DNA of 28,237 nt from a virus: positions 1 through 28,237 of the IMG/VR virus record IMGVR_UViG_3300024180_000027; one strand, written 5' to 3'. A model generated the notes under the pieces. It was not told the DNA's origin. It worked only from the letters and a program-made list of their open reading frames with translations, and made no database searches. A program made the position numbers and the translations under genes. Shown piece after piece: positions 3,654 to 23,673 of this stretch. Positions within the stretch are counted from its first letter, which is position 1. Each line of letters begins with the position of its first letter.

Positions 3654-3675
3654 ATTTTTTTTATTATTGAGGATT

Positions 3676-4412: not shown

Positions 4413-4423
4413 ATTAAATTAAT

Positions 4424-4639: not shown

Positions 4640-4652
4640 AATTTTTTAAATT

Positions 4653-5114: not shown

Positions 5115-5127
5115 AATTAAAAAAGTT

Positions 5128-5340: not shown

Positions 5341-5359
5341 TATTATTAAATAGATAGTT

Positions 5360-5599: not shown

Positions 5600-5606
5600 T
5601 AAAATT

Positions 5607-5951
5607 ATGGCACTCTTAACACCTCAGAAGATATTACAGTCAGGTTTAGTTCCTACGACAGTAACTCCAGAAGCAACTGGTGATCAAATAAATAATACAG
5701 GCAGAGAATTTTTTTATGTAAAGAATGAAGGCACTGTATCACTAACTGCGACTGTAATACCTGTAGTTACTACAGTTATAAATCAATCATTTGGTAAGCT
5801 AAAAAAAGAAAATGCTGTGTTAAGTTTAGCTGTAGGCGAAGATGGTTTTTTAGGTCCTTTTGAAGTTGATGCTTTTAATGATGGTTTAGGTAGAATAACA
5901 ATAACTTGTTCTGTTCAAAGTAATATCAAATTGTCAGTATTATTTGCATAA
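5607..5951 (+). CDS. Putative head decoration/fibre-like structural protein
   Basis: The start at 5607 gives a 114-aa protein beginning MALLTPQKILQSGL. The pattern 'LLTPQ-x-I-x-x-[SA]GL-P-T' followed by 'N-x-G-R-x-F-[FL]-x-V-K-N' (NNTGREFFYVKNEG, about residues 32-45) recalls small beta-sandwich phage proteins annotated as head decoration or minor capsid proteins. The rest is alternating hydrophobic strands, with F-L-G-P-F near residues 86-90 and a closing KLSVLFA strand. An upstream in-frame ATG at 5523 would overlap the previous gene and add unrelated sequence. It is adjacent to the large fibre gene (11 nt gap). The beta-rich structural character is seen; the virion location is inferred. 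Confidence 0.5.
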   Translation: MALLTPQKILQSGLVPTTVTPEATGDQINNTGREFFYVKNEGTVSLTATVIPVVTTVINQSFGKLKKENAVLSLAVGEDGFLGPFEVDAFNDGLGRITITCSVQSNIKLSVLFA

Positions 5952-5962
5952 ATAAATAAAAA

Positions 5963-8623: not shown

Positions 8624-8626
8624 CAT

Positions 8627-9100
8627 ATGAATTTAAAAAATATAATAATAGCATTAATATTATGCATACCCTTTATATCTTCATCTCAGCTTAATAAAAA
8701 TATATGGCAAGCATCTACATTTCAGTTTTTCTCTGGAGCTGCTGATGGGGCCAATCAAGCTTATCTTTTTCATTATAGTAATAGTGGATTATTTAAACAA
8801 TGGGGTATTAGACCAAACGAAGAAGCATGGAAAAATAAGTGGGTTGTAGATCCAAATGGTCAAGTTAGAGTAGGAACAGAACGATTTTGGTTATCTAGTA
8901 GGTCTTTAGTTTTTTTGACTGACTTTCATCATGCTACAAGATTTGTAAAGCATAGACTTGATGAAGGCACTACTTTAACATATGCTTTTGGTCATGGTAT
9001 TAAAAAGAAAAAGTGGTATTGGTACGTAGCCGATTTTAGCATAATGTTTACTGCTAGATCTATTGGTTTTTATTCTACTTACAATTTAATATTTAAATAG
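8627..9100 (+). CDS. Secreted or membrane-anchored protein of unknown function
   Basis: This 157-aa protein starts 3 nt after the fibre gene. It opens with a signal-like helix (MNLKNIIIALILCIPFISSSQ) and a likely cleavage near residue 20; there is no lipobox cysteine at the right place. The remainder is aromatic and histidine-rich, with FFSGAADGANQAYLFHY, EEAWKNKW, SLVFLTDFHHATRF and a final KKKWYWYVADFSIMF that may be membrane-associated. The SGxxDGxNQ ... HH-x-TR pattern recalls a conserved family of unknown function seen in Bacteroidota and their phages. Its 3' end overlaps the end of the opposite-strand gene by 8 nt. It may act in the envelope at lysis or after infection; this is inference. 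Confidence 0.75.
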   Translation: MNLKNIIIALILCIPFISSSQLNKNIWQASTFQFFSGAADGANQAYLFHYSNSGLFKQWGIRPNEEAWKNKWVVDPNGQVRVGTERFWLSSRSLVFLTDFHHATRFVKHRLDEGTTLTYAFGHGIKKKKWYWYVADFSIMFTARSIGFYSTYNLIFK

Positions 9101-9580: not shown

Positions 9581-10446
9581 ATAAATAAATGAGAATATGA
9601 ATTATTTTGATTAATTACTTCATCAACTTCAATAATACTATTGCTTTTTTTAGATGCTATATTAGAATTTACAATAGGTAATTCTTTTATATTTACATTA
9701 TTAATATTTATTACATTACTCATAATAAAGTCATGAAAGTTTTGAGATGATTGAAGCCAATTTCTAGGGTGAGCTTTCTTTAATGCGTAAGTTACATTAT
9801 TATAAAATGCCCAGCAATTATTTTGTTCAACACCATAATAGTAAGAAGGCTTACTTAGCTCATTCTTAATCATTGTCATTTGCTGTGTATCAAGAGTTTC
9901 TTCTTCAATAAACAATCTCCCTGTTAATTCAGCTTGTTGCTTTATTGTTAAACTGCATGACTTCATTGAATCACGATCATTTATAATACGTGTGTAGTAA
10001 TATTCTGCATTTTTTATTTGATCACTAATATGCATTGAGACTTCCATATTAGCAGCTCCTGTATGTTTACGCTTCCAATTCATCATATCACCTGCAATCA
10101 TGCCATTGCTGCATACTTTTACATATGCGCCAATTGCACATTGAAAGCGTGTACTTTTGTCATATGAATTTGTCCAAGCAAACATCATCCCTAATTCATG
10201 CTCATTGGATATTTTATCATTTTTAGTTCTGCTGTTGTATATATGATATATACCTTGAGCAACGTTTGCATTCATACTAGCTCTGTATATTTCATTTTTA
10301 ACTGTAAAACCACTCTTTCTTAAAAGAGATAAAGTTTTTTCTATCACTGATTTATGTGATACTACTGTATAGCTTTCACCATGATTTGGTAAAGGCGCAT
10401 TTTCTAAATATGATTTAGTAACGTCTTTTGGTTTTATGTAACCCAT
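9577..10446 (-). CDS. DUF932-family phage/plasmid protein
   Basis: This 289-aa protein fits the DUF932 (phage/plasmid-like protein, TIGR03299) family: YTVVSHKSVIEKTLSLL near residue 26, LGMMFAWTNSYDKSTRFQCAIGAYVKVCSNGM around 85-116, a helical region, then WAFYNNVTYALKKAHP...WL near 210-230. The C-terminal ~50 residues are Asn/Ile/Ser-rich and look disordered. Members are widespread in phages and plasmids; their biochemical role is not established. It lies 51 nt downstream of the SPL-like gene and its TGA stop overlaps the ATG of a 26-aa ORF. Confidence 0.8.
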   Translation of the reverse strand: MGYIKPKDVTKSYLENAPLPNHGESYTVVSHKSVIEKTLSLLRKSGFTVKNEIYRASMNANVAQGIYHIYNSRTKNDKISNEHELGMMFAWTNSYDKSTRFQCAIGAYVKVCSNGMIAGDMMNWKRKHTGAANMEVSMHISDQIKNAEYYYTRIINDRDSMKSCSLTIKQQAELTGRLFIEEETLDTQQMTMIKNELSKPSYYYGVEQNNCWAFYNNVTYALKKAHPRNWLQSSQNFHDFIMSNVININNVNIKELPIVNSNIASKKSNSIIEVDEVINQNNSYSHLFI

Positions 10447-10497
10447 AATTATAAACTTTTAAAGTGTAAATATAATAAATTAATCTGACACAGCAAA

Positions 10498-11331
10498 TTA
10501 AAATATATATCTTATTGTATTTAAAGGAAAGTATTTACTGTATATCTCTTTAAATTCTCTTAATAATCTGCTTTTATGTATCAGAGGATATCTCATGACA
10601 CCGCTTTGATTCTTTACTTCTGAACTATACTTCATCATATCCTGAGCTTCTATTGATGCTTTGGCCATTTGATTAGTATGATTGGTTAAAGCAATAACTT
10701 CACATTTATTTATACCTGCATGTTCTTTTACTTGTATAAATAGTTTATCATACTCTTCTTTCCAACCAGGATAAAAGACTAAAGGACTATAATTAATATG
10801 AACTTCCCAGCCCAACTCTTTAAGCCGGTTAACATCAGCTATGCGGCTTTCTATCTTTTGCATCTTAGGTTCTAATATATTAGAATACTTTTGAGGCATA
10901 AGACTAACACGAACTCTTGGGGACTTGTTGAACTTTTTTACATCAAGTTTCAACAATCCGGGATACTTAGTAGCCATAGTACTATTAAGCTGAGGATGAT
11001 CATCATAGCGTTTAAGATAATCAATCAAAGGTTCAGGCATATGTTTTTGCATTAGAACTAAATCTGAATTGCATGCTACATCTACCATAGTATATATAGG
11101 GTCTTGTTGATCAGGTTCTTTATAGTAAGATTTTTCCCAATTAACTACAGACTGGAAGATCTGATCAACGTTTTCATTGACAAATACTCTTTTACCATTA
11201 TATCTAGACATATAACAATAAGTATCTACACAGCCACCAAAACATCCGTAGATAATATTGGGAGCTATGCAGTTAGCACTATTGTTATTTGGTTTAGTTA
11301 CAAGGGTTTTAGTTCTTTGTACCTTAATCAT
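10498..11331 (-). CDS. Spore photoproduct lyase-like radical SAM protein
   Basis: This 277-aa protein has the hallmarks of the SplB family. An N-terminal cysteine cluster, C30-x3-C34-x4-C39 followed by Y-M (YGCFGGCVDTYCYM), would bind a 4Fe-4S cluster and SAM. RVSLMPQ (about 140-146) and the segment E-x-R-I-A-D-V-N-R-L-K-E-L-G-W-E-V (about 161-178) follow. Next come INYSPLVFYPGW and a terminal helix-rich region. SplB enzymes repair the UV thymine dimer of spore DNA. The host here is unlikely to form spores, so a repair role for ordinary phage DNA or a different DNA-directed radical reaction is possible. The cysteine spacing differs from the CX3CX2C of known SPL enzymes. The gene overlaps MazG by 8 nt upstream and precedes the DUF932 gene. 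Confidence 0.75.
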   Translation of the reverse strand: MIKVQRTKTLVTKPNNNSANCIAPNIIYGCFGGCVDTYCYMSRYNGKRVFVNENVDQIFQSVVNWEKSYYKEPDQQDPIYTMVDVACNSDLVLMQKHMPEPLIDYLKRYDDHPQLNSTMATKYPGLLKLDVKKFNKSPRVRVSLMPQKYSNILEPKMQKIESRIADVNRLKELGWEVHINYSPLVFYPGWKEEYDKLFIQVKEHAGINKCEVIALTNHTNQMAKASIEAQDMMKYSSEVKNQSGVMRYPLIHKSRLLREFKEIYSKYFPLNTIRYIF

Positions 11332-11632
11332 TATCTTTTACAAACTGCCCGTTAACCATCTTGCCTGTACGCTTTGCAATTACATTGTAAGCACTTTCAA
11401 GACACGCTTCTAGGCTAAGATTTTGCATTTTAGCTTGGATAATCAAAGTAACCATAATATCACCAATAGCATCTATAATCTCTGCTCGATCATTATTATT
11501 AATAGCTGTACATAGTTCTGTTGTTTCTTCTAATGTTTTCAATGCCTGAGCCATTGGTGTAGCTTTATCAAGAATGCCTTTTTCTTCAGCCCACTTTTCT
11601 ATATCTGTTTGTACTTTAAAATAAAAATCCAT
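11324..11632 (-). CDS. MazG-like nucleotide pyrophosphohydrolase
   Basis: This 102-aa all-helical protein has the MazG metal-binding pattern: E35-E36-x-x-E39 (LEETTEL) and, one helix later, E51-x-x-D54 with D58 (EIIDAIGD). A final helix pair is followed by a basic tail. Such enzymes cleave (d)NTPs to monophosphates; phage versions have been proposed to tune dNTP or alarmone pools. The short single-domain length is normal for phage MazG. Its 3' end overlaps the SPL-like gene by 8 nt, and it is 9 nt downstream of phoH, so all three are probably one transcript. Confidence 0.85.
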   Translation of the reverse strand: MDFYFKVQTDIEKWAEEKGILDKATPMAQALKTLEETTELCTAINNNDRAEIIDAIGDIMVTLIIQAKMQNLSLEACLESAYNVIAKRTGKMVNGQFVKDND

Positions 11633-11641
11633 AATTTAATT

Positions 11642-12304
11642 TTAATTGTTAATTAATAGTTCTAATATTTCAGTTAATGATTCATGTCTATGATTATCTT
11701 CTAATACAATCTTATAAACATGCTTTGAGCTTACTATCTTAGATACTTCATGTATAGCAGAGTAGTTTTTATCTTTTAAATCTATTTGTTGGTTATCACC
11801 ACAAAATATCATCATAGAATCTTTACCTAATCTACTTAAAGCCATTGAAAATTGTGATCTTGTTAAATTTTGAAATTCATCAACAATAACAACAGAATTA
11901 TCAAATGTTCTACCTCTAAAATGAGATAAAGAAACTAACTCTATCTGCTCATCAGTTTCAAGTTTTTCTAAAAACTCAGGTTTATTATATACTTTACGCA
12001 TGTTAGACTTTATAGGGACTAACCATGGTTCCATTTTTTCTTTTTCAGAGCCAGGTAAAAATCCATTATCTTCTGTAGCCACAGTGGGCCTAGTAATAAT
12101 AATTTTATTATACTGCCTCTTAAAGAACTGATCTAATGCAATTTGAACAGCAAGTAATGTCTTACCACTACCTGCGTTTCCATGAATAAAATTAAAAGGA
12201 TGCTTAAGAATGTTTTCTTTTGCAATCTTTTGCTCATCAGATAGAGTAATATTAAATTTTATAGACCCTTTAGGTGGCCTTTTTGTTTTATTTTCTTTAG
12301 TCAT
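11642..12304 (-). CDS. phoH: PhoH-like ATPase
   Basis: This 220-aa P-loop ATPase of the PhoH family has Walker A GNAGSGKT (residues 42-49), the conserved TRP-T...D-x-GFLPG-x-x-x-E-K-M-x-P motif (71-92), Walker B VVIVDEFQN (138-146) and a sensor region GDNQQID. PhoH genes are frequent in marine phages; the protein is an ATPase related to helicase domains but its role in infection is unsettled. The start codon overlaps the polymerase stop by one base (TAATG), implying coupled translation. Length is typical for the phage single-domain form. Confidence 0.92.
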   Translation of the reverse strand: MTKENKTKRPPKGSIKFNITLSDEQKIAKENILKHPFNFIHGNAGSGKTLLAVQIALDQFFKRQYNKIIITRPTVATEDNGFLPGSEKEKMEPWLVPIKSNMRKVYNKPEFLEKLETDEQIELVSLSHFRGRTFDNSVVIVDEFQNLTRSQFSMALSRLGKDSMMIFCGDNQQIDLKDKNYSAIHEVSKIVSSKHVYKIVLEDNHRHESLTEILELLINN

Positions 12305-14295
12305 TAAAATAATTTTAATTGATTACTCTTAATAGAGAGAATACTATTTATCTCAGATTCAATAGCTTGAAGATAATATAAATTATCTATATTATAGTCT
12401 GACCACTTAAGTTTAACTTCCATCTTATTAAAGACAGTTTGTAACCACTTACCTGATTCTAGTTGTATCTCTCTACCATCATTTTTGTTAACTTTTACAA
12501 TCTTAACTCCAGATTTAGATATAAAATATCTATTTATTTTTTGAAGTTTTTTTTCTATAAAAGATTTATTTTCAACACTTCTTGATATTTGATGCCAATT
12601 ACCTTTAGATTTAGATCCAATACAGTAATCTAAAATATTCTTATTACTAGCTAGATAATCCTCAGGTAATATGTCATTAACAAAGTAGTTATATATAGCT
12701 TTTTTTACTACAAGTTTAGATTTACTTTTGTGAAGTTGCAGGTCATGAAAGTTAAACCTACCTTTTAGCTTTACTGGTGCATAACTAAACTTATCATTCT
12801 CAACCTTAAATAGGTAATGAGGCTGACTCTGTTTAATTTCTCTCCATTTGGTAATATCAACAGACTTAAAGTTATTTATACCAATATAATTATTTACATC
12901 AGAAAGAATTAACTTTTGATATTGATCATGTTCTAACTCTAGATTAGTAGTTTCTTCCCATTCTTTACAAATTTGCATGTATAAATCTACATGCTCTCTA
13001 GGAATTATAGTTTCAACACCATCTGTATTTTGCAATAAAGGTACAGCACCTGGTATTCTTTCCATAATCTGTTCATATAACATCATAAGGCTAAGCTGAC
13101 CATTAATTGTAATCTTTAAACACAATTCAGGATCATAAAAGAAGCTGTTTTCATCATTGCTAAGACCAAAAGTAGAGTTAAGTATAATCTTATATACATA
13201 GTTCATTGGATTGCTCTTAGGTATCTTCTTTCTTTCATTAAAGAACCATTCATACTGATCACAAAAGTCATCAACTGGAAAATGCCCTGGTGAAAACTTA
13301 TTTCTAATAGCAAGATTAGGATAAAAACTAGTAACGTCAGAAGACAGTATAACCATATCATCTGAGCTTTCATAAACACCTTTACTTGCAGCACCATGCA
13401 CACCACCTAAACCAAAATCTGTTTTAACACCTTTATAATTTATACTATACTTAAAGTTACCTTTAAGATGTGATCCATCAATTTCTAATGATTTAAACCT
13501 GTCTTTTAATACTTTAAATTCTAAAGATGTAAATGATATATATGGCAATATAATATCAGCTATCTTAATGCTGTCTCTACTTGTCCTCATCCGCTTAAGA
13601 TTCCTTTTAGGTATATTAAGCTTTTTAGTTAAATAATAAGCAAATAACTCTTTACTTATTCTTGGTTCTGAAGCGCTATATAAGTTTATATTGTAAGTGT
13701 CTGTTAATTCTTTTCTTAATTTAATTTGTGATTTAGATCTATTAAATATTTCTTTAGTTGATTTAACATCATTCACACAATATTCTAAAATAGTATCTAT
13801 CTGATCCTGAGTTTTAATCTCTGTTGTGTGACTTATAGGCATATCAATTATATTCTCCCAGTCCATACTATATTGTATCCATTTTAGACTAGAACGTTTA
13901 GCAGGATTATCCCAGTGATGAAGTTTGAATATGTCTATTTGACCAATTTCCATCTTCCATTGAGGATAATCACTAAACTCTCTATTATTAGATTTTTGAA
14001 TACAACGTTGAGCATATATATATATAATCTTAGCGATTTCACAACCACTAAGGCCGGACCAATATTGATAATTATCTATTATATAGTGAGTGACTTGAGC
14101 ATCAAATGCTAGTCCATTGTAAGATATATGCCACTCTTTATTGTTAATATTAGTTTTTAAAAATTTAATGAAACTATCTAATTCATTATTTAAATCATGA
14201 ATAACAAAAACTTTTGTTTCTAGTGTTTTATAATGTTCAAATACACCACAAAAAAAGTTTGATAAAGTTTCATAGTCCATTACCCAGTGCTTCAT
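12304..14295 (-). CDS. Family B DNA polymerase with 3'-5' exonuclease domain
   Basis: This 663-aa polymerase probably replicates the phage genome. Exonuclease motifs are complete: Exo I D7-Y-E9, Exo II N60-G-L-A-F-D65, Exo III Y172-x3-D176. Polymerase motif A is D320-V-T-S-F-Y-P and motif B is K369-x3-N373-S-T-F-G377. Motif C reads N423-T-D425-G, so the first Asp of the usual DTDS is Asn and Ser is Gly. The second Asp, which binds metal in phi29 polymerase, is kept, so the enzyme is likely active. A GGVHGAASKG loop precedes motif A. The size is between phi29-type and larger PolBs; no terminal protein gene is visible and a DnaB/primase system is present, so it is not obviously protein-primed. 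A strong terminator lies just upstream of its ATG. Confidence 0.92.
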   Translation of the reverse strand: MKHWVMDYETLSNFFCGVFEHYKTLETKVFVIHDLNNELDSFIKFLKTNINNKEWHISYNGLAFDAQVTHYIIDNYQYWSGLSGCEIAKIIYIYAQRCIQKSNNREFSDYPQWKMEIGQIDIFKLHHWDNPAKRSSLKWIQYSMDWENIIDMPISHTTEIKTQDQIDTILEYCVNDVKSTKEIFNRSKSQIKLRKELTDTYNINLYSASEPRISKELFAYYLTKKLNIPKRNLKRMRTSRDSIKIADIILPYISFTSLEFKVLKDRFKSLEIDGSHLKGNFKYSINYKGVKTDFGLGGVHGAASKGVYESSDDMVILSSDVTSFYPNLAIRNKFSPGHFPVDDFCDQYEWFFNERKKIPKSNPMNYVYKIILNSTFGLSNDENSFFYDPELCLKITINGQLSLMMLYEQIMERIPGAVPLLQNTDGVETIIPREHVDLYMQICKEWEETTNLELEHDQYQKLILSDVNNYIGINNFKSVDITKWREIKQSQPHYLFKVENDKFSYAPVKLKGRFNFHDLQLHKSKSKLVVKKAIYNYFVNDILPEDYLASNKNILDYCIGSKSKGNWHQISRSVENKSFIEKKLQKINRYFISKSGVKIVKVNKNDGREIQLESGKWLQTVFNKMEVKLKWSDYNIDNLYYLQAIESEINSILSIKSNQLKLF

Positions 14296-14320
14296 AACAT
14301 TGTATCTGCTTATTTTAGAA

Positions 14321-14350
14321 TAAAAAAAGCCCCATTAAATCAATGGGGCT
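14321..14350 (-). terminator. Intrinsic terminator upstream of the DNA polymerase gene
   Basis: A perfect 9-bp stem, AGCCCCATT (14328-14336) with AATGGGGCT (14342-14350) and a 5-nt loop, is followed on the minus strand by a run of seven T (14328-14322). It lies 47 nt after the stop of the 14397-14816 gene and 26 nt before the polymerase ATG. It would end or partly reduce leftward transcription before the polymerase. Confidence 0.85.
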
Positions 14351-14396
14351 ATATTGTAAATGAAAATACTAGCTGTATCAATAAAAAACTCAAAAA

Positions 14397-14816
14397 TTAT
14401 TGACCAGGTACTATTATTTTTGAAACCTTTGTTTCTTTTACATCTACAAAAAACTTTTCATAATCAAACTCTTCAGCATTTACAGCAAAAGTATGTATGA
14501 ATGATTTGATATCATCTTTATCACTAAGGTAAAACTCAGAAAAAGTATCAACTAATCTTCTTTCCTCTTTATGCGTTTTACCTGTTTGTTTATTAGGAAC
14601 CTTAAGCCTTTGAGGCTGTCCAGTATCATCTAATTTGGCAACCATGTGATAAGACTGTTTCATTACTTTACTAATTACAGCTAAAATGCTTGATGCTGGA
14701 TCAAACATAGCTTCTACGTATGGTGAGTCAATGCTCACTGGCATTAATGTAAATGATTTAGCATTTCTAAAACTAGAATTTACTAACATCATATTTTGAC
14801 CAATTGGTTTATTCAT
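14397..14816 (-). CDS. Protein of unknown function upstream of the polymerase
   Basis: This 139-aa soluble protein starts MNKPIGQNMMLVNSSFRNAK. It has a hydrophobic strand region (SFTLMPVSIDSPYVEAMFDP), a central basic patch (RLKVPNKQTGKTHKEERR) and an acidic helical C-terminal half (FSEFYLSDKDDIKSF, EEFDYEKFF). The 'P-Y-V-E-A-x-F-D-P' segment suggests a conserved fold but I cannot name a family. It is followed by a strong terminator, so it may be made at a higher level than the polymerase downstream, which suits an accessory or structural replication factor. That role is inference only. Confidence 0.75.
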   Translation of the reverse strand: MNKPIGQNMMLVNSSFRNAKSFTLMPVSIDSPYVEAMFDPASSILAVISKVMKQSYHMVAKLDDTGQPQRLKVPNKQTGKTHKEERRLVDTFSEFYLSDKDDIKSFIHTFAVNAEEFDYEKFFVDVKETKVSKIIVPGQ

Positions 14817-14827
14817 AATATATATTT

Positions 14828-15403
14828 TTATTTTGTCAAATGTATAGAATTATTATTTAATATTTCTACAATATCACAATTATTATTTAATAATGTTTCT
14901 TTTAATATATCAGGCGGTGTACAAACCTCATATATATCTTCTATACATTCTACATCTACATCTAGTAATAATGCATAATTTTCATGTACATCTTCAGGAT
15001 CTAAGAAACCTTTAATAAAACTTCCTGCTTTTTTCTGGGAAGAGAAAAAATTAAGTATTTTAATCTTATTGTTTAAAGTAAACTTTGAATACTCACCTTT
15101 TAAAAACTTTTTTACATCAGACTTATGTTCACTGAAGTCATAAATAAATAATTGTTTATCTTCATTAATATCAATTCTGCTTTCAAAATGAGAATTATTC
15201 AATAGATTATTATAAGCAAACTTTTCAAATTCATTAGTCTTTTTGGTCTTATACTCACATAAAAACTTATTGTCTTCAGGTGTGTATACACTATCCCATG
15301 CTATATATGTTTGTATAGGAACTTTAATAATACCATTTTTTACATTTAACAGTGGATAAAGAAATACTTTACTTTTTTGAAAATAATTTGTATAAACTTT
15401 CAT
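14828..15403 (-). CDS. Protein of unknown function (191 aa)
   Basis: The protein begins with a beta-like region (KVFLYPLLNV, VPIQTYIAWD) and a central charged part with IYDFSEHKSDVKKFLKGEYSKF. The C-terminal half carries FFSSQKKAGSFIKGFLDPE and an acidic stretch (LLDVDVECIEDIYEVCTPP). It has two cysteines near the C-terminus and no membrane segment. No family recognised. It lies 1 nt downstream of the PDDEXK nuclease stop and 11 nt before the next gene, so it is co-transcribed with replication and repair genes. Confidence 0.75.
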   Translation of the reverse strand: MKVYTNYFQKSKVFLYPLLNVKNGIIKVPIQTYIAWDSVYTPEDNKFLCEYKTKKTNEFEKFAYNNLLNNSHFESRIDINEDKQLFIYDFSEHKSDVKKFLKGEYSKFTLNNKIKILNFFSSQKKAGSFIKGFLDPEDVHENYALLLDVDVECIEDIYEVCTPPDILKETLLNNNCDIVEILNNNSIHLTK

Positions 15404-15404
15404 A

Positions 15405-16394
15405 TCATAATTTAACTTTTTTAACTAATAATTCATAAGGTAATGAATAATTCCTCTCTGTGTAGTGATATTCAGCAATTTTTAATACATTATTTAAGCC
15501 TTCAGCCCAATTACTCATAGATTCCTGTGATACATCATATACATATACTTGGTTATACTTATCAATAACTATAAATTTAAATATAATAGTATATTCATCT
15601 TTATCATCTCCAAGTGAGTCATATACCATTTTAGAATATATAGATGCTTGGAGCCAATAATTATAAAAGTCAACACTTTCACTAAATTTATCTACAGTTT
15701 TACCTGATGTTTTAAGATCACATATCACTACTGTTTTTGACTCAGTATCAACTGTATAGTAATCTATATAACCATGTAGTCCAAAAGTAAACTTTTCTAA
15801 GTTAGATTTAATATACTTTTCTGCATATGTTGTTACTGGATCTAAATCAAAATCAGTTTCTTCATTTTTAAATAAAGACATAACTTCTTTATTAGATCTT
15901 ATTACTTCAGCCTTAACTGTACAATCTAACAAAGTATCTTGATTAATTACATCAACAGAAGAATTATGTAAAAACTTCCAATAAGGTTCATTATCTGGAG
16001 TTTTAACTTTAGCTATTCTCGCTTCATCTGCTTTAAGAGACTGATATAGATTCATGTCTTTTAATGAATCAAGAATAATAGAGTCTTTTACATCTTCTAA
16101 CTTTGCTACAGTTGTATACATAGCAATATTCTTTAATACTTTCCTGACATTATCGGTTGGTGATTTACCAGGTACTACGTTAAACTTTTTTGTTAAATTT
16201 TCAGGTTCAAATACCAAACAGTGTACAAGTTTACCCTCTATTAAGTGCTTATCAGTTTTAATATCACGATCCTGTAGTATATAATCTTTATAGAATAACC
16301 ACGGTGAAAATAATAATTTATTAAGAGAAGAATAACTAAACGCAAAATTTTTATTTGCATAAAACTTTTCTTCTTTATCTAAGTTTTTAATCAT
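15405..16394 (-). CDS. PD-(D/E)XK nuclease, RecB/Cas4/exoVIII-like
   Basis: This 329-aa protein has the order of motifs typical of phage PDDEXK exonucleases (PDDEXK_1 / DUF3799-like). An N-terminal S-Y-S-S-L-N-K-L-x-x-S-P-W segment is followed by G54-K-L-V-H58-C-L-V-F-E-P. The catalytic core has D211 (HGYIDYY), D226-L-K228 (VVICDLKTSGK) and a following helix Y-N-Y-W-L-Q249-A-S-I-Y253. It probably resects DNA ends for recombination or packaging. A Sak4-like ATPase gene lies about 8 kb upstream in the same direction and may be its annealing partner. Its 5' end overlaps the stop of the upstream gene by 8 nt. There is no four-cysteine cluster of the Cas4 type. Confidence 0.85.
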   Translation of the reverse strand: MIKNLDKEEKFYANKNFAFSYSSLNKLLFSPWLFYKDYILQDRDIKTDKHLIEGKLVHCLVFEPENLTKKFNVVPGKSPTDNVRKVLKNIAMYTTVAKLEDVKDSIILDSLKDMNLYQSLKADEARIAKVKTPDNEPYWKFLHNSSVDVINQDTLLDCTVKAEVIRSNKEVMSLFKNEETDFDLDPVTTYAEKYIKSNLEKFTFGLHGYIDYYTVDTESKTVVICDLKTSGKTVDKFSESVDFYNYWLQASIYSKMVYDSLGDDKDEYTIIFKFIVIDKYNQVYVYDVSQESMSNWAEGLNNVLKIAEYHYTERNYSLPYELLVKKVKL

Positions 16395-17556
16395 TTGATA
16401 TAATTTTATTAGTTAATTCCTTTGTAATAAACAATGAATCTAAATTTATTTTGAAAACATCTGCGTTTTCACCAACTAATTTATTTAATAATGTACTGTA
16501 TAACTTTTCTTTAGTTTTATTTACTGCATATTCTGTAAGTTTTTTATTTTTATCAAGAAGCATAATATAATCATTAAACGCACGTATAGAACTTTCATTA
16601 TGATTACCATCATATTCTTTCATTCTGTTTCTAAATGCTTTTACATTTACTGTATTCCAGTTCCTTGTATTTTTTAACCATTCATAGTTCCAGTAATAAA
16701 TTCCTGATACAACATCATATGATTTATCAATATTACAGTTAGCTAGCATTTCTAAAGCTAAACCTCTGTCATCAATATTTTGACTTTTTGACATAAGCTC
16801 TATATTATCATAATCTTTTGTTTCCAAAATAGCTAATCCTTCATCAATAATATTACATATATTAGAGTCTAATATAACCTGAGCAGACGAATTAAGTAAA
16901 GCAATGTAGTCTTTTTGATTTTCTTTATTTAAAGTAAAAGACCTACGTAGACATTCATCTTTTTTAATGCTTACCTCATTATAAATTTTATCTCGTATTA
17001 CCATACTAGCTGTTCTTATGGTTTGATTATAGCCTGAGTATCTATATGAAGGAGTTAATATAAAATTTATCATACAGTCATGAGGTACATCATCAATTAA
17101 ACTTTTTATTTTATTTAAAGCACAATCACTTAGTAAATTCTCATCTTTAAAATACTTAAATACTTTAAATGCAGAGGAAAAAGGAATGCATGTGTTCCAT
17201 TCTCCATGACCTATAAGCTTAGATAAAAAATTTAAAGAAGTAATATGAATGTCAGCCTTCTTTGAATTTCTTATAATAGTGCAATTAAACTTTTCTTTTA
17301 TTAAATCTACTTTTTGTCTAGGTAAACTTAAATTTGGATATCTATATAGTTTTTTATCTTGAAGGGATACTGAATTGCAATTAAAAAGTTTATTAAAACC
17401 TAAACTTTTAAAATCATCTTCTTTAAGTTCCCAATTATTAGAAGAGATTAGCCATATTTTTTCTGAGTCTTCATATGATATATCATCAGCAAAAAGTGAT
17501 AACGCACCATCAGAAAAATTTTCAAGATTTATTTTTACGTTATATATATTTTTCAT
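16387..17556 (-). CDS. Unknown protein paired with the MoxR/VWA module (paralogue A)
   Basis: This 389-aa cytosolic-looking protein has no recognised family. Around residues 65-105 it contains KKLYRYPNLSLPRQ followed by a helix and a strand ending in KADIHIT. The same layout (KKAFILPKCNISQDR ... KADLIIG) occurs in the neighbouring 345-aa protein, so the two appear to share a domain. The C-terminal half is helical and includes ELMSKSQNIDDRGLALEMLA near 254-273, a pattern echoed in the 145-aa protein at 21461-21898. The strands and helix around the shared motif could be a small Rossmann-like fold, but no catalytic motif stands out. It overlaps the nuclease gene by 8 nt and lies 4 nt after paralogue B. 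Confidence 0.8.
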   Translation of the reverse strand: MKNIYNVKINLENFSDGALSLFADDISYEDSEKIWLISSNNWELKEDDFKSLGFNKLFNCNSVSLQDKKLYRYPNLSLPRQKVDLIKEKFNCTIIRNSKKADIHITSLNFLSKLIGHGEWNTCIPFSSAFKVFKYFKDENLLSDCALNKIKSLIDDVPHDCMINFILTPSYRYSGYNQTIRTASMVIRDKIYNEVSIKKDECLRRSFTLNKENQKDYIALLNSSAQVILDSNICNIIDEGLAILETKDYDNIELMSKSQNIDDRGLALEMLANCNIDKSYDVVSGIYYWNYEWLKNTRNWNTVNVKAFRNRMKEYDGNHNESSIRAFNDYIMLLDKNKKLTEYAVNKTKEKLYSTLLNKLVGENADVFKINLDSLFITKELTNKIISND

Positions 17557-17560
17557 AATT

Positions 17561-18598
17561 TTATTTTAAATAATTTTGATATTCTTTTTTTATACATACT
17601 TTAAATGTATAAAAGCGTCTATTGTAAATTAATATTTCTTCTCTTGCAATTGGTTCTAAATACTTAAAAGATTCTTTGCATAGTTTATCATTCCTTTCTA
17701 ACCACAATATCATTTCTTCAGCACTTTTTCTCATAAATAATCTAAACCTAGATTCATTAATCCAATATTTAAGATCTTTATCTAATCTTTTTCCATATAA
17801 TATATCACCACATTCCCTAGAAAGTTTCCATATTAAATGATGTTTATTATTATAATCTATGGTAGGTATAACTTTAATAGCTAATGCCTTATCATCTTTA
17901 TTAGAATTTACTTGTTCAATAAGATCTTCTACTAACTGATCATCAAGAGTTATTTTATTTGCAGATCCTTGCAATACTGTTTCAGGATCTATAACACTTA
18001 TACTTTTTGAATCAATAATATAAGCCAGATTAACGGCCATGCCAGTCAACATATATGTATTATATAAAGAATCATCAATATTTAAACCATAATATGAAAA
18101 ACCTTCAGTAAGATATTTAGTTATTAGAACTGATAAACCCGAATTATAAATTGCTATTTTTTTAAAGTCTGTATCTGTACTTGTACATTTAACTGTTTCA
18201 TAGTTCCATAATCTATTCATCATTAAAGTAGAGGGTATATTATCTCCGTTTTCTAATGTTCCTTTAAATATACCTTCATGTCCTATAATTAGATCTGCCT
18301 TTTCATAATTATTTGTTACAGTTATGTTATTTTCCTTAAGAGCTGCTTTTAATCTATCTTGAGATATATTACACTTAGGTAAAATAAAAGCTTTCTTTTT
18401 ATTTATAAACGTAGTCACATCTTCAGTTGGTGCTGTTAATATGCTTTGTATTTTTTCATAAGCTTCAGCATTTTGAGTACATAATACTTTATTTACTTCT
18501 ACTGAAGTAGAAAGGACACCGTAAATGGTGTCACTTTCTAATCCAAAGTATTTTAAAGCATCAGTATCAAAATCTTGATATACTGATTTATTTGCCAT
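17561..18598 (-). CDS. Unknown protein paired with the MoxR/VWA module (paralogue B)
   Basis: This 345-aa protein lies 4 nt downstream of the AAA+ ATPase gene and 4 nt upstream of paralogue A. Residues about 88-126 (KKAFILPKCNISQDR ... ITVTNNYEKADLIIGHEG) match the layout of a segment in paralogue A, suggesting duplication and divergence. A later helical part carries HHLIWKLSRECGDILYGKRLD and a basic C-terminus (RRFYTFKVCIKKEYQNYLK). No transmembrane segment is evident. No known family was recognised. The tight packing with the ATPase suggests that both paralogues are substrates, adaptors or partners of the MoxR/VWA machine; this is inference from context. Confidence 0.8.
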   Translation of the reverse strand: MANKSVYQDFDTDALKYFGLESDTIYGVLSTSVEVNKVLCTQNAEAYEKIQSILTAPTEDVTTFINKKKAFILPKCNISQDRLKAALKENNITVTNNYEKADLIIGHEGIFKGTLENGDNIPSTLMMNRLWNYETVKCTSTDTDFKKIAIYNSGLSVLITKYLTEGFSYYGLNIDDSLYNTYMLTGMAVNLAYIIDSKSISVIDPETVLQGSANKITLDDQLVEDLIEQVNSNKDDKALAIKVIPTIDYNNKHHLIWKLSRECGDILYGKRLDKDLKYWINESRFRLFMRKSAEEMILWLERNDKLCKESFKYLEPIAREEILIYNRRFYTFKVCIKKEYQNYLK

Positions 18599-18602
18599 AA
18601 TT

Positions 18603-19874
18603 TTATTTCATTGTCATTTTAACAATCTCAGGGATCATCATTAATTTATTAAACTTCTTTTTGTTACCGTTAAAAATTGTACGTACAATTAAATACTTAA
18701 GATCATTAGTAAAATAATCTTCAGTACATAATGCTTTAAGCCTATCAGTAATCTTTTGTACTATTTTATTCTCATTAGAGTAAACAATAGCATAATTACC
18801 TAATCTTGTAGCCAATGTTGATGCAATATCTGCACGGTAATTGTCATCTTTACCAATACAACTTCTAAGCTCTCCCAGTATGTAAGATTCACTATCATGA
18901 GTTAGTAAATCTTTAGGTGTCACTAGTTTATCGAGTTTGTTATTAATAAAAGTTGTAAACATAGAAGCAAAAGCATCACCAACAGAACCTTCTCCAATCA
19001 TTTGAATTAATGATAAGTTATTTTCAAATGAATCAAAGCTTGAAATTGAATTGAAAAATGTAGTAATAGATCTTGCATTTGTTTCTTGTGTTACAAGCTC
19101 TGGATGAAGCAACAAGAAATTAATACATCTAGTATCAATACCAGCACCTTCTGCCCACTGTGCCCACACATTAACATCAAACTTAAGATTTGCAGTTACA
19201 TATCTAGTTTTCTGTGCACTATCTACACTGTTAACCATATAATCTCCGTTATCTGGGTTCGCTGTTAAAATTATATGCCAATCTTTTGGTAGAGTCCATG
19301 AAATATAGGTTTGTCTATCAATTAACTCCATTACAGCTTGAATAAACCTTGTGTCTGCACGGTTCCAATCATCTAATAATAAGATACCACCAGATTTTGC
19401 ATCAGCAATCCATTCAGGTGCACAATAAGACATTCTATTCTTACCAGTCATCTTAAACCCTTGCTTTAGATACTCTTGTACTGCAAGTTCATCAACCCAT
19501 TGACCAATTTTTTTTGTAACTGTTTGATTTAAGTTTGCTAAACTATTTCCAGCTGCTCTTTGTGTAGCGGTAACCATGGAAATGTTATCTTGTTGCTTTA
19601 CAGCTACTTTCTTTTCCTTATACATTTGAAACTGCCTTACTGGAAAACCAACTAAGTCACCTAATTCTTCTATTTGTGCAAGATTTAACTTTACAAATTT
19701 CAATTCATTTTCCTTAGCAAGTTCTACTATAGTAGAAGTTTTACCAATACCAGATTCACCTACAACTTCTACAGATACAGGACTTTTACCTGACTTTTGT
19801 AAGTATCTGTTGTTTGTTATTATATGATTTATAAATCCTTTTAATTCTGTTGCATTTAAATTTACTTGTGCCAT
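18603..19874 (-). CDS. MoxR-type AAA+ ATPase
   Basis: This 423-aa AAA+ ATPase has Walker A G39-E-S-G-I-G-K-T46, Walker B GILLLDDWNRAD (163-174), sensor 1 in LTANPDNGDY (204-212) and a candidate arginine finger at R224 (QKTRY). The 'DD-W/E-N-R-A' box and 'AxPExI' (A152-PEW) are of the MoxR/AAA_5 kind. MoxR proteins act as chaperones that remodel or activate partner complexes, usually with a VWA protein encoded nearby; here the VWA-metallopeptidase is two genes upstream. The C-terminal half is helical, as expected for a lid and partner-binding region. The upstream leader AATAAAATTAAATTAA is shared with the next gene upstream. Confidence 0.9.
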   Translation of the reverse strand: MAQVNLNATELKGFINHIITNNRYLQKSGKSPVSVEVVGESGIGKTSTIVELAKENELKFVKLNLAQIEELGDLVGFPVRQFQMYKEKKVAVKQQDNISMVTATQRAAGNSLANLNQTVTKKIGQWVDELAVQEYLKQGFKMTGKNRMSYCAPEWIADAKSGGILLLDDWNRADTRFIQAVMELIDRQTYISWTLPKDWHIILTANPDNGDYMVNSVDSAQKTRYVTANLKFDVNVWAQWAEGAGIDTRCINFLLLHPELVTQETNARSITTFFNSISSFDSFENNLSLIQMIGEGSVGDAFASMFTTFINNKLDKLVTPKDLLTHDSESYILGELRSCIGKDDNYRADIASTLATRLGNYAIVYSNENKIVQKITDRLKALCTEDYFTNDLKYLIVRTIFNGNKKKFNKLMMIPEIVKMTMK

Positions 19875-19900
19875 TTTAATTTAATTTTATTAATTTTTAT

Positions 19901-20302
19901 TTATAATTCTGCTGTAAAACTACAAGATCCGTGATCCTTAATACTTTTTAATATTTTCCTACCTAAATGATAATCATTGTACTCAGAAATTTCTTCTGAA
20001 TTTAGAGGCGATAGACCTGCTTTACTAATATATTGATGAAAATCAAGTGTATCATCATCTAAAGTTTGATGATCATGATCTAAGTTAAATAAATCATAAT
20101 ATGTTATAAGAGCTAGCTTGTGATCTTTAAATGAATCCTCTATGCTATGAAGTTCAGTTTCAAGAACTTCTAAATCACTTATATCAAAGTAATAATTTAA
20201 AGTATCTGGCACTCCAACTACTCCAAATCTATCAGCAGCATTACTTCCTTGAGATCCAAAAGCAAACTTCCCATAAATATCACCTTCATAATATCTTCCC
20301 AT
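19901..20302 (-). CDS. Conserved-looking phage protein of unknown function
   Basis: This 133-aa acidic protein starts MGRYYEGDIYGKFAFGSQGS. That start (GRYY-x-GDIxGKFxFxxQ-S) is one I recognise from hypothetical proteins in large phages and viruses, with AADRFGV shortly after. The middle is very acidic (NLDHDHQTLDDDTLDFHQY). The C-terminus has YHLGRKILKSIKDHGSCSF. It sits between the VWA-metallopeptidase (1 nt gap) and the MoxR ATPase (26 nt gap), so it is likely part of that module. No catalytic motif is visible. Confidence 0.75.
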   Translation of the reverse strand: MGRYYEGDIYGKFAFGSQGSNAADRFGVVGVPDTLNYYFDISDLEVLETELHSIEDSFKDHKLALITYYDLFNLDHDHQTLDDDTLDFHQYISKAGLSPLNSEEISEYNDYHLGRKILKSIKDHGSCSFTAEL

Positions 20303-20303
20303 C

Positions 20304-21467
20304 TTAATTTAATTTTATTACTTGTCCTGGTAAACTATTGTTTATAGTAGAAATACTGCTTAATACCCATAAAGTATTTTTAGGGCAATCATCAGGATTA
20401 CTTGCTTCACCATCTGTTAAATATACTAGAGCTGTATAAAGCCCTCTCTTTTCATTAAAGTGATCAATTACTGGTTGAAAACTTGTTCCACCACGACCGT
20501 GTATTTCCCAATCTCTTTTTGGATTAAATTCTTTTACACTATTCAAGCTGGTATCACACTGTGCAATTGTAATCTTATGACCTGTTTTATGCATGTGAGC
20601 TAATTCATTAAAGAATTCTTTTAACTCATCATTGTTTACAGATCCACTTGTGTCAACACCAACTAGTATATGATTCTTAAATTTAATCTTAAGCCCGGGA
20701 CTACCAGAATAACGTTTGTTATATTTACGTCTTAGTTTCTTAGTATAAACTATACTAGAATTACCTACAAATCTTCTTAGGTAACCTTTCCAGTCAAATT
20801 TAGCTGGTTCAATATGCCTTAATCTCTCAATTAAATCAGAAAGTTCACCAGGAATAGAGCCTTGTCTCTTTTCTGTTTGCTCAGCTGATTCTTTTAGTTG
20901 ATGCTCTATTTGTTTTTGCATCAATTTTTTATCAGCTTCTGGTAAGTTATCAAATTCTTCCCATGTACTATGACAATATTGTGATTCACCATCCATTTGA
21001 TCCATTAAGTTATCCAAAGACGGTGATGTTCCATCTTCCTGAGCTTGTTCTAAAAGCTCATAATACTTTTTAGTACCTGCTTTAATAGGAAGCTTTAGCT
21101 CTGGAAAACTTGATAATAATAAACCACCATCAGGCAATTTACTTTCCAGTATGTACTGGTTGATTTCTAAATCAGCAGCTATATTAAATAACTTGTGATT
21201 AGAATATAAGTCTCTTAGTAATAAGTGACCAAATGCAATATGCAATAGCTCATGCTTTATTAATCCAAACCTATGATCCTCACTAAGTTCATTAAAGAAC
21301 TCTGGGTTTATAGTTAATTGCATACCAATACCTTTTTTACTTACTCCTGCCGTAGAAATACGTTTACTGTATTGTTTATTGATACCAATTAAAAAGAGCC
21401 CGTAAAAAGGCTCTGTGAATATTAACTTTTTGGTTGTTCTTGCAACCTGATCTTGTATGTTTACCAT
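20304..21467 (-). CDS. Metallopeptidase-like protein with C-terminal VWA domain
   Basis: This 387-aa protein has two domains. The N-terminal part has a zinc-peptidase helix H72-E-L-L-H76-I-A-F-G-H and a following AADLEINQ (D99/E101 as possible third ligand), as in the DUF2201 putative metallopeptidase family (PF13203). A charged linker (about 160-215) follows. The C-terminal part (about 265-387) is a VWA-like domain (PF09967) with an intact MIDAS: D272-T-S-G-S276, T328 in GRGGTSF and D352 in YLTDGEA. In bacteria such proteins pair with MoxR ATPases, and a MoxR gene lies just downstream. The substrate is unknown. The leading residues 1-40 (TTKKLIFTEPFYGLFL) are the usual start of this family. 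The start at 21467 overlaps the upstream gene by 7 nt. Confidence 0.9.
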   Translation of the reverse strand: MVNIQDQVARTTKKLIFTEPFYGLFLIGINKQYSKRISTAGVSKKGIGMQLTINPEFFNELSEDHRFGLIKHELLHIAFGHLLLRDLYSNHKLFNIAADLEINQYILESKLPDGGLLLSSFPELKLPIKAGTKKYYELLEQAQEDGTSPSLDNLMDQMDGESQYCHSTWEEFDNLPEADKKLMQKQIEHQLKESAEQTEKRQGSIPGELSDLIERLRHIEPAKFDWKGYLRRFVGNSSIVYTKKLRRKYNKRYSGSPGLKIKFKNHILVGVDTSGSVNNDELKEFFNELAHMHKTGHKITIAQCDTSLNSVKEFNPKRDWEIHGRGGTSFQPVIDHFNEKRGLYTALVYLTDGEASNPDDCPKNTLWVLSSISTINNSLPGQVIKLN

Positions 21468-21898
21468 ACTATGTTAAATTTAATATCATCTAAAAATTTA
21501 TAATTTATTATGTTAGTAATTGTTGATCTTAACTCTTTAGTAAACTGTTCTGTAAATATTTTAATGATTTCAGAATTATCTGAATAATGATCTTTAATTG
21601 TATTATATAGATTATCCCAGCATATATCATTTATTTCTACAGGACTACCAAAACGCTTATTTATATCTAATCTATTTTTATAATGAGAAAATTTATCTAT
21701 CAAAAATATATCTTGATGTTCATCTAATATTCTTTCTCTTGTATATTCATTAGATGCTTTAATTAACATAAGTATGTATATTGGATCTAAGCCCATACTT
21801 TTTATATTTTTTAACCCAATACTTATGTCATCTTCATGAGATGCGTTTAATAATTCTTTTAAATTTTTAAAATCTGAAACTTTGAATTCTTTCACCAT
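21461..21898 (-). CDS. Helical protein of unknown function in the MoxR/VWA module
   Basis: This 145-aa, mostly helical and acidic protein begins MVKEFKVSDFKNLKELLNAS, then HEDDISIGLKNIKSMGLDPI. That motif, a short helix, S-x-x-DD, then a G/A-L-E/K helix, resembles one in the C-terminal half of paralogue A (16387-17556). The rest contains CWDNLYNTIKDHYSDNS and a C-terminal FNIVW. It overlaps the VWA-metallopeptidase gene by 7 nt. Function is unknown; it may be an adaptor. No enzyme motif is seen. Confidence 0.75.
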   Translation of the reverse strand: MVKEFKVSDFKNLKELLNASHEDDISIGLKNIKSMGLDPIYILMLIKASNEYTRERILDEHQDIFLIDKFSHYKNRLDINKRFGSPVEINDICWDNLYNTIKDHYSDNSEIIKIFTEQFTKELRSTITNIINYKFLDDIKFNIVW

Positions 21899-21918
21899 AA
21901 TTTTTTAATTAATCTATA

Positions 21919-22311
21919 TCATGTAAATAACATTTCATTTGAATAATTCTTTTCTTGTACAACTAGTCTATTGTATGATAAATCATAGCTTTGTTTATAA
22001 ACATCAATATATATTGAAGCATAAGAGCCTTTGTTATTAACCAAATCACCAGCTGTATCTATTTTACTATCAATTATATCTATTGCCAATTGCATGAGTA
22101 TGTTTTCCTCACTATTTTTAATTTTTGATGATATGTAATAACTTATATTACTTTTCTTATTCTTACTCTTGTATCTATAAATTATATCGTCTATATCACC
22201 ACTATCTCCGGAGCCTGAAAAAGTTATTTCAACTTCACTTACTCCTAGATCTTTTAGTTTTGCTATTAGAAGAACTTGTTTCAATCTTTTTTGTATTTCC
22301 TGATCTTTCAT
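21919..22311 (-). CDS. Small protein with GSGDSG motif (DUF6878-like)
   Basis: This 130-aa protein has an N-terminal helix (EIQKRLKQVLLIAKLKDLGV), a strand and the loop VEITFSGSGDSGDIDDIIY at about 26-44. The [FY]-x-G-S-G-D-S-G-[DQ]-I pattern is the hallmark I associate with DUF6878-type proteins. Two further helices hold the segment NILMQLAIDIIDSKI, and the C-terminal half ends in a strand-rich stretch. The first 77 nt overlap the 3' end of the RusA-like gene in another frame. The helix before the motif looks like part of the fold, so a later start is not attractive. It is the first gene of the run leading into the VWA-metallopeptidase. Confidence 0.65.
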   Translation of the reverse strand: MKDQEIQKRLKQVLLIAKLKDLGVSEVEITFSGSGDSGDIDDIIYRYKSKNKKSNISYYISSKIKNSEENILMQLAIDIIDSKIDTAGDLVNNKGSYASIYIDVYKQSYDLSYNRLVVQEKNYSNEMLFT

Positions 22312-22693
22312 TATCTTTTAAACTATTTTCTTTTAATATTTCTATATATACACCTGGATTATCTTTATTATACTCATATTCATAAAACATAGGGTTTATG
22401 TTATCAGCATTATCATCTTCAATCCATTTATATTTGGTCATATCATCTTGCACTGTTTGTGCAGGATTAATATAATCAAATTTATGACGAGATCCCCTAA
22501 TAAATGTAAAACCAATTTTAATAGGAAGTATATACTTTTTAATTTCTTCTTGAAACTCAGAAGTATACTTTTGATAATACTCTTTTGTATTTTTACGATA
22601 ATTCATTACAGCTTTACTAGCAATAAAATACTTTCCTGTCCATCTACGCCCATTCTTTGAGCTTGGTACATTACCTGGTATAAACCATTTCAT
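22235..22693 (-). CDS. RusA-like Holliday junction resolvase
   Basis: This 152-aa protein has the RusA layout: FIPGNVPSSKNGRRW at residues 4-18, then IASKAVMNYRK, a strand (IKIGFTFIRGSR), the acidic active-site region HKFDYINPAQTVQDDM with D73 and D83/D84, then WIEDDN (D93/D94) and a closing strand NPGVYIEI. RusA enzymes cut Holliday junctions with paired Asp residues; here they would process recombination or replication intermediates before packaging. The fold ends near residue 119. A Ser/Lys/Asn-rich tail of about 33 residues follows, which is the part overlapped by the next gene. It lies 2 nt downstream of the primase. Confidence 0.75.
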   Translation of the reverse strand: MKWFIPGNVPSSKNGRRWTGKYFIASKAVMNYRKNTKEYYQKYTSEFQEEIKKYILPIKIGFTFIRGSRHKFDYINPAQTVQDDMTKYKWIEDDNADNINPMFYEYEYNKDNPGVYIEILKENSLKDNERSGNTKKIETSSSNSKTKRSRSK

Positions 22694-22695
22694 AA

Positions 22696-23673
22696 TTATT
22701 TATTTAAAGTTTGTTTTAATAAAGGCTTTAACATTTTATGTACTTTATCAAAACCATGTTCCTTCATAGCATCTGATACATCTTTACATATAGTAGGTAC
22801 AAATCCATGAATATTATATCTATCATGATAAACTTTTACAGCTTTCTTGCCTGCATCATCATTATCAAATAATGTAATTACTTTTTGATATTTATTCTTA
22901 AAGTTTTGAATAACATGAGGTTTAATGATAGTATTTTCTGAATCAGGACTAATTACATCAATATTGTAACCAATACTTTTAAGGCACATTGCATCTTTAA
23001 GTGATGAACAAATAACTAAATATGGCTTGTTATATGATAGCTGATCTTTACCTTGCAGATAAGATTTAACTTTACAGAATTTGTACTTTCTGTTAAAAGG
23101 TTGATATATCTTGTATACATCATTATCTTTATCAAAGTAACCATAGCCACACTTAGGGTTTATTGTAAGTGATTCTATTTTGTCTGACCCATCTTTAATT
23201 AAATTATAATATTCAATTGGATTGACGTTATATTCAGTTAATAATGTCTTCCCTATTCTAAAGCTTAACCAGAAGTCTTTATCAAGCTTAGTCCACTGTC
23301 TTTTTTTTATAAAGTCAACTTTCCATCTATTTATAGATTTAACTTTTTTATTTATAATTTGTGATGACCTATTATATTTATTATAATCTGATGTCAGTTT
23401 TGTTATAGCATTATTAACATCTAAGTTAAACAAAAACTTTATTAAGTCAATCTTACTACCACCCTTACCTGTTGAAAAGTCTTTAAATTTATACTGCATT
23501 ATAGATTTATCTACATATATGCAAAAACTTGGTGTCTTTTCCATAGGATTAAATACTGATTTGATTTTTATATCTTGACCAATCAGTAGTTCAGGTAAAT
23601 TTAGGTAATGTTCAAAAACCCAAGTACTGGGTACATTTTCCCATTTATCTATAAAATTTTTAGTATTAAACAT
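22696..23673 (-). CDS. DnaG-like (Toprim) primase with degenerate zinc ribbon
   Basis: This 325-aa protein follows the phage primase order. An N-terminal CHC2-type region keeps the K-T-P-S-F core (residues 46-50) and GKGGSKIDLIKFL. The usual zinc ligands are missing: the C-P-x-H position reads S39-V-F-N42 and the C-x2-C position reads F-K-D-F-S. A Toprim-like half follows with C222-S-S-L-K-D227-A, where most family members have E-G-x-x-D, then SPDSENT and L-F-D270-N-D272-D-A-G-K. It would make primers for the polymerase or act as a Toprim nucleotidyltransferase. The DxD motif is intact. It is preceded by a terminator, lies 2 nt from the RusA gene, and shares the operon with DnaB and the SSB-like protein. 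Confidence 0.8.
   Translation of the reverse strand: MFNTKNFIDKWENVPSTWVFEHYLNLPELLIGQDIKIKSVFNPMEKTPSFCIYVDKSIMQYKFKDFSTGKGGSKIDLIKFLFNLDVNNAITKLTSDYNKYNRSSQIINKKVKSINRWKVDFIKKRQWTKLDKDFWLSFRIGKTLLTEYNVNPIEYYNLIKDGSDKIESLTINPKCGYGYFDKDNDVYKIYQPFNRKYKFCKVKSYLQGKDQLSYNKPYLVICSSLKDAMCLKSIGYNIDVISPDSENTIIKPHVIQNFKNKYQKVITLFDNDDAGKKAVKVYHDRYNIHGFVPTICKDVSDAMKEHGFDKVHKMLKPLLKQTLNK

Follow-up and report, generated by a model that had tools for sequence, protein, structure and literature searches.

A conserved five-gene module around a MoxR-type ATPase and a metallopeptidase-VWA protein in the replication/recombination block of a mostly marine phage lineage

The virus record IMGVR_UViG_3300024180_000027 from IMG/VR was analysed over its whole length of 28,237 bases (hereinafter referred to as the window). 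It encodes a MoxR-type AAA+ ATPase and a metallopeptidase-VWA protein (hereinafter VWA) within one long leftward run of genes. Comparison with related phages delimits a module of five core genes, X-VWA-ATPase-U1-U2, located inside the replication/recombination block of a mostly marine phage lineage. We tentatively regard the products as an ATP-driven MoxR/VWA remodelling complex for a phage replication or recombination assembly, with U1 and U2 as specificity partners, a reading to which we give slightly less than an even chance. The five core genes are as follows.

21461-21898, minus strand: X, a small protein, helical and acidic, encoded between RusA and VWA, with a helical motif common to U1 and U2
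20304-21467, minus strand: VWA, with a DUF2201 zincin-type metallopeptidase domain and a VWA domain; phrog_1314; homologue of N4 gp25
18603-19874, minus strand: MoxR-type AAA+ ATPase; phrog_1297; family position of N4 gp24; Walker B motif DD
17561-18598, minus strand: U1, a paralogue of U2, with a putative BRCT-like N-terminal segment (about 66-116) and a helical C-terminal part
16387-17556, minus strand: U2, a fast-evolving paralogue of U1, with a putative BRCT-like segment (about 66-120) and a helical C-terminal part

Conservation and boundaries of the module

IMG/VR yielded a first, redundant set of 247 loci from close relatives, with VWA identities of at least 82%. Deeper relatives were found on contigs filed under bacterial metagenome-assembled genomes that carry the same phage genes (VWA identity 53-84%, 59 distinct VWA proteins). 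Linkage was counted only where the contig was long enough or left enough room beside the gene. In the first set, the ATPase came next after VWA in 202/202 loci, and U1 after the ATPase in 200/200, a truncated copy of the window being the one deviation. U2 directly followed U1 in 187/187 loci, and the exonuclease followed U2 in 179/179. In the deeper set, U1 was present in all 40 and U2 in all 37 distinct VWA lineages with enough room. The ATPase was also directly upstream of U1 in 278/278 U1 loci with upstream room, a redundant count. The X profile flagged 55 of the 59 distinct lineages; as up to four of these hits fell on U1 or U2 instead, at least 51 lineages have a recognised X of their own. 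The identity of the window X was checked with a hidden Markov model (HMM) of 46 other X proteins, which ranked it first among the window open reading frames (ORFs; E = 1.6e-5); the X protein of relative L269 has a longer C-terminus in common with it. By these linkage and presence counts, the module therefore consists of X-VWA-ATPase-U1-U2.

An earlier reading made from the sequence alone had proposed a seven-gene module, which included two further proteins:

21919-22311, minus strand: DUF6878 protein (PF21798, E = 2.4e-10), an optional insert between RusA and X; not core
19901-20302, minus strand: GRYY protein, matching phrog_33624, an optional insert between VWA and the ATPase; not core

All seven ORFs are present on the minus strand at the coordinates listed here, and the tight spacing was reproduced (from the left, gaps of 4, 4, 26, and 1 nucleotides, a 7-nucleotide overlap, and a 20-nucleotide gap). 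Such compact spacing is not peculiar to the module, as the surrounding leftward block is equally compact. The DUF6878 and GRYY genes are regarded as optional because conservation, not spacing, sets the module boundaries: they were present in 17/59 and 12/59 distinct lineages, respectively, few near relatives have GRYY, and the two inserts occupy two fixed places. Thus, the proposal of a conserved module with unknown partners stood, VWA-ATPase-U1-U2 being unbroken, and the seven-gene set did not. As a unit the latter was also contradicted by other phage groups, in which the ATPase-VWA pair occurs without these neighbours, an outcome named in advance as counting against it; the five-gene core survives within the lineage.

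On either side of VWA (DUF6878 and GRYY) and between U2 and the exonuclease (a spore-photoproduct-lyase-like gene), extra genes are present in some relatives and absent from others, yet no insert was seen within ATPase-U1-U2 of the relatives apart from an intron and a duplicate in relative L337. This pattern, and the fact that three of the five core genes have sequence in common, speak against a simpler explanation in which there is no dedicated machine and unrelated genes keep their order through a common operon in a conserved phage lineage. The simpler explanation would be consistent with the equally syntenic neighbouring replication genes and with the absence of U1, U2, and X from other sampled phages with the pair; we consider it improbable.

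The metallopeptidase-VWA protein and the ATPase

The VWA protein matched PF13203 (E = 1.1e-17) and PF09967 (E = 1.9e-15), both above the Pfam cut-off, and phrog_1314 (E = 1.5e-63). Its HExxH and metal ion-dependent adhesion site (MIDAS) motifs had been read as intact, which was borne out by comparison: HExxHxxxxH, NxAxD, and the MIDAS residues were invariant in 12 diverse phage homologues. Judging from this alignment, the metallopeptidase active-site residues are intact. The PHROGs family phrog_1314 and many GenBank records label the VWA family "HNH endonuclease", although the protein is a zincin-VWA. This identity was rejected for the VWA gene, as only DUF2201_N, DUF2201, and PhageMetallopep matched and no Pfam HNH match was obtained; the label looks like a spreading annotation error.

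The ATPase matched phrog_1297 ("ATPase") with an E-value of 5e-35, and the two families of the pair, phrog_1297 and phrog_1314, are encoded side by side in the window. Of the proposed MoxR-type assignment, the ATPase family is strongly supported by this match; MoxR-related AAA models gave weak matches only (AAA_5 scored 20 bits against a cut-off of 22 bits). In an alignment with N4 gp24 and others, the protein keeps Walker A, the sensor-1 asparagine, and the conserved arginine. Its Walker B is DD (LLLDDWNRAD), which was invariant in 15 family members, while the other phages aligned have DE; a degenerate-pattern search for a DE-type Walker B gave no match. The ATPase gene of relative L337 (L337:9151-11460) is interrupted just after Walker B by a group I intron (Rfam RF00028, E = 4e-20 at 10431-10664), which carries an ORF resembling a GIY-YIG homing endonuclease gene. 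The intron is a sign that its insertion site in the ATPase is highly conserved.

Assignment to the CobS/CobT cobaltochelatase was rejected, since phrog_249 ("porphyrin biosynthesis") matched at 8.9e-5, over a 42-residue P-loop stretch only, against 5e-35 for phrog_1297, and the VWA protein has DUF2201_N. Insertion of a cofactor or metal into a phage or host enzyme such as ribonucleotide reductase, in the manner of CobS/CobT or NorQ/NorD, was also considered. Cellular MoxR/VWA pairs insert metals (PMC13036017); cobST-like pairs have been reported in tailed viruses (PMC8651126), and ORFs 499-2124 and 2673-3791 read from their translations as two ribonucleotide reductase subunits. The closest families are nevertheless phrog_1297 and phrog_1314, no chelatase partner was recognised in the block, and we judge such a role very improbable.

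Relationship among U1, U2, and X

Pfam and PHROGs name three of the seven ORFs (VWA, the ATPase, and DUF6878), and no significant match was found for U1, U2, or X. Homology searches gave no usable U1/U2 homologue in 50,697 phage records and no usable U2 homologue in nine Crassvirales records. The sequence-only reading had described two mutually related unknowns, and profile-profile comparison agrees, with families defined mainly by gene position. U1 and U2 matched each other with 96.7% probability (E = 3.7e-10, 279 columns), X and U2 with 90% (E = 1.6e-6), and X and U1 with 33% (E = 4.5e-4), against a maximum of 2.3% in 15 control pairs. For earlier, smaller U1, U2, and X families, column shuffles reached the observed scores in 0-3 of 150 cases. 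The HMM built from 46 X proteins, all of types other than that of the window, placed U1 and U2 directly after X among the window ORFs (E = 0.015 and 0.048).

Intermediate genes were found in relatives. L337 carries three tandem U genes (11506-14715), the middle one of which matched the U1, U2, and X profiles at 9e-44, 8e-62, and 1e-6, and in L345 the gene in the X position matched the U2 profile at 2e-7. On the strength of the profile scores and these two relatives, U1 and U2 are therefore diverged paralogues, as judged by sequence comparison, and X, which also has part of their sequence, has their helical motif in common.

Probable BRCT-like segment of U1 and U2

The AlphaFold2 model of U2 was confident, with a predicted local distance difference test score (pLDDT) of 88 and a predicted template modelling score of 0.69; the U1 model (pLDDT 53) was not used for fold search. 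With the U2 model as query, Foldseek retrieved four viral proteins from BFVD at E = 9e-9 to 5e-6. A single podovirus contributed two of them and a crAss-like phage and an uncultured phage one each; these relatives include proteins of ctYsL76 and ctz6O13. The podovirus proteins would fit a U1/U2-type pair. Against the PDB, the U2 model hit PARP BRCT domains with a probability of 0.93 over approximately 51 columns (E = 0.42). Further, with a profile of the segment from 21 U1/U2 proteins, PARP1 BRCT accounted for the top two of 177,635 PDB sequences (E = 0.022 and 0.034), and single U1/U2 members matched Pfam BRCT or BRCT_2 at 0.005-0.008, below cut-off. No single line is conclusive, and together they make a BRCT-like N-terminal segment in U1 and U2 likely.

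Evolutionary rates

Mean pairwise identity over 51 loci was 88% for the ATPase, 84% for VWA, 73% for U1, 70% for the primase and the exonuclease, and 42% for U2. The ATPase and VWA were thus among the most conserved genes of the block and U2 was the fastest. In close pairs, the ratio of nonsynonymous to synonymous substitution rates (dN/dS) was 0-0.25 for the ATPase and VWA and 0.24-1.6 for U2, the latter from few substitutions. Between-gene correlation of pairwise identities did not single out the module partners. By these measures, the machine appears constant and one partner, U2, variable, which suggests that part of the target is variable and possibly a host protein.

The same rates, and the varying number of U genes (three in L337), would be expected if the machine dismantled a host complex in counter-defence or host takeover, with U2 as its variable recognition part. 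However, the dN/dS values rest on small counts, and another gene of the block (14828-15403) is also fast, with a mean identity of 55%. No PADLOC or anti-defence similarity was found, and accessory counter-defence genes tend to be gained and lost, so that constant presence within the replication block is unusual for them. We hold this role to be unlikely. The gene 14828-15403, a block gene of no assigned family, lies downstream of the exonuclease in near relatives.

Genomic setting

In leftward order, the block contains the primase, RusA, the module, the PDDEXK exonuclease, two small genes, and the DNA polymerase. The flanking genes are as follows.

22696-23673, minus strand: primase, resembling annotated Crassvirales primases; upstream flank (22235-23673), order kept in relatives
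22235-22693, minus strand: RusA-like resolvase (phrog_1682, E = 1.5e-20); upstream flank, conserved setting; overlaps the DUF6878 gene
15405-16394, minus strand: PDDEXK exonuclease (phrog_412 exonuclease VIII, E = 2.8e-17); downstream flank (12304-16394); overlaps U2
12304-14295, minus strand: DNA polymerase, with polymerase matches; downstream flank beyond the two small genes

Between relatives L002 and L005, the synonymous divergence (dS) of RusA was 0.65, against 0.05-0.16 for its neighbours, which suggests local recombination at this gene. A radical SAM protein resembling spore photoproduct lyase is encoded at 10498-11331; it falls short of the family model in length and scores below its cut-off (NCBIfam E = 4e-41). 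In relatives L269 and L271, this gene has been relocated and lies between U2 and the exonuclease. In addition, an 886-aa protein (5963-8623, plus strand) has, beside repeat-like segments, the sequence DSSGSM, which resembles a VWA/MIDAS motif; by its position the protein is unrelated to the module.

In nine Crassvirales records with primases like that of the window, no usable match to VWA was obtained. Several of these records have MoxR-like ATPases, in crAss-like phage cr115_1 within the replication block, and a conserved AAA+ ATPase has been reported in the crAss-like replication block (PMC7886860). In cr115_1, two tandem MoxR/CbbQ-like ATPases (L248:5567-7521) lie between a Sak4-like gene and the primase, which is the corresponding part of the replication block. 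Crassvirales kinship of the window phage is supported by primase similarity but not by the polymerase, and is left open here.

The ATPase-VWA pair in other phages

By tblastn, the VWA protein was found in 425 phage records, many of them N4-like. The broad VWA alignment was too diverse for scanning, and viral contigs probed with the Moorella VWA gave no match. In the other phage regions examined, the ATPase gene was usually upstream of VWA, with 0 to 3 or 4 small genes between. No U1, U2, or X was found beside the pair in the regions examined of N4-like, jumbo, Moorella, Thermus, Rhizobium, and cyanophage phages. Helicase, polymerase, or nucleotide genes also lay close to the pair in several of these other phages. 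The gp24/gp25 genes of N4, which have no assigned function, count as core genes of the N4-like phages and belong to the middle transcription class, and the N4 virion proteins named in the same paper include neither (PMC4193335). A MoxR-vWA(metallopeptidase) pair was described in group 2.2 jumbo phages by Iyer et al. (2021), who proposed a role in virion assembly (PMC7824862). The ATPase-VWA pair is thus known in phages, and the fixed partner trio of this lineage is undescribed in the collections and literature searched; the earlier remark that the complete set could not be named holds for the partners and not for the pair (PMC4193335, PMC7824862).

Proposed function

A role in replication or recombination is favoured because VWA-ATPase-U1-U2 is linked without a break between the primase/RusA and exonuclease/polymerase genes; location and partner type also speak for it more than for the anti-defence or host-complex ideas. 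The reading draws further support from N4 gp24/gp25 being middle genes that are not among the named virion proteins, from the intact active-site residues, and from the helicase, polymerase, or nucleotide genes close to the pair in several other phages. We infer that, as in NorQ-NorD or RavA-ViaA, the ATPase would form the usual MoxR ring and the VWA protein would be the co-chaperone seated on it. X, U1, and U2 would be dedicated partners that dock through their common helical motif, and the BRCT-like and variable regions of U1 and U2 may determine which DNA or protein is targeted. By pulling or twisting at the expense of ATP, the machine would then remodel a protein complex at phage replication/recombination intermediates, the sites of action of the primase, RusA, exonuclease, and polymerase, and the target may be cut by the metallopeptidase. 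A more specific version, a phage machine for ATP-powered extraction and proteolysis of protein-DNA complexes at forks or DNA ends, p97-with-Spartan-like and targeted by tandem BRCT-like paralogues, would be of a MoxR/VWA kind not described before; we give it only a small chance.

Several points weigh against a replication or recombination role. The BRCT similarity lies below curated cut-offs, with a Foldseek E-value of 0.42 against the PDB, and conserved phage gene order can reflect co-expression alone. Moreover, the pair is near virion genes in GAP32 and S-TIM5, and in roseophage RPP1 the gp24/gp25 homologues are near the second structural module (PMC4193335). These locations would suit virion assembly, in which capsid or tail proteins would be chaperoned and proteolytically processed by the MoxR-VWA pair, with U1, U2, and X as assembly helpers; in proposing this for the same domain pair, Iyer et al. 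cited a precedent in the archaeal virus ATV (PMC7824862). The window genes, in contrast, lie inside a replication block and run opposite to the ORFs at 3911-9100, which point rightward, the N4 genes are middle genes, and U1 and U2 are BRCT-like in appearance. We regard virion assembly as rather unlikely for this module. On the replication/recombination reading, phage DNA metabolism may be served by MoxR/VWA machines, which would then not be confined to virion assembly.

Comparison with known systems

The architecture of MoxR plus VWA is like that of NorQ-NorD and RavA-ViaA; in the NorQ-NorD mechanism, a MoxR ring with a VWA co-chaperone remodels a partner (PMC13036017). Those systems are cellular, serve respiratory enzymes, and have other partners, and, unlike in the window VWA, no metallopeptidase domain is described for them in the abstracts consulted. 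The VMAP ternary conflict systems, which combine MoxR, vWA, and an obligatory third component (Kaur et al., 2020; PMC7159879), are similar in having a further obligatory component. The window module differs from them in that no effector is fused to VWA, no VMAP was detected, the gene order is another, and VWA evolves slowly. Its assignment as such a system was rejected, as PF13203 and PF09967 cover the VWA protein and leave no room for an effector, and U1 and U2 match no such family. The likeness of the U1/U2 segment to the PARP-1 BRCT domain lies in fold and sequence profile, but only about 40-50 residues align, with weak E-values, and the remainder of U1/U2 is unlike PARP-1.

Among phages, N4 gp24/gp25 (Schitoviridae) belong to the same ATPase and metallopeptidase-VWA families and are adjacent middle genes. 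Their order is the reverse of that in the window, where VWA precedes the ATPase, the VWA proteins are approximately 23% identical, and N4 is without U1, U2, or X. The jumbo-phage pair, exemplified by GAP32, likewise consists of a MoxR ATPase and a vWA protein with an N-terminal metallopeptidase, but lies among virion genes and without U1, U2, or X. The gp24/gp25 pair is core in N4-like phages and also occurs in jumbo phages; to this pair the present lineage adds obligatory partners, two of them probably BRCT-like, and a genomic setting that does not vary, which make its function testable.

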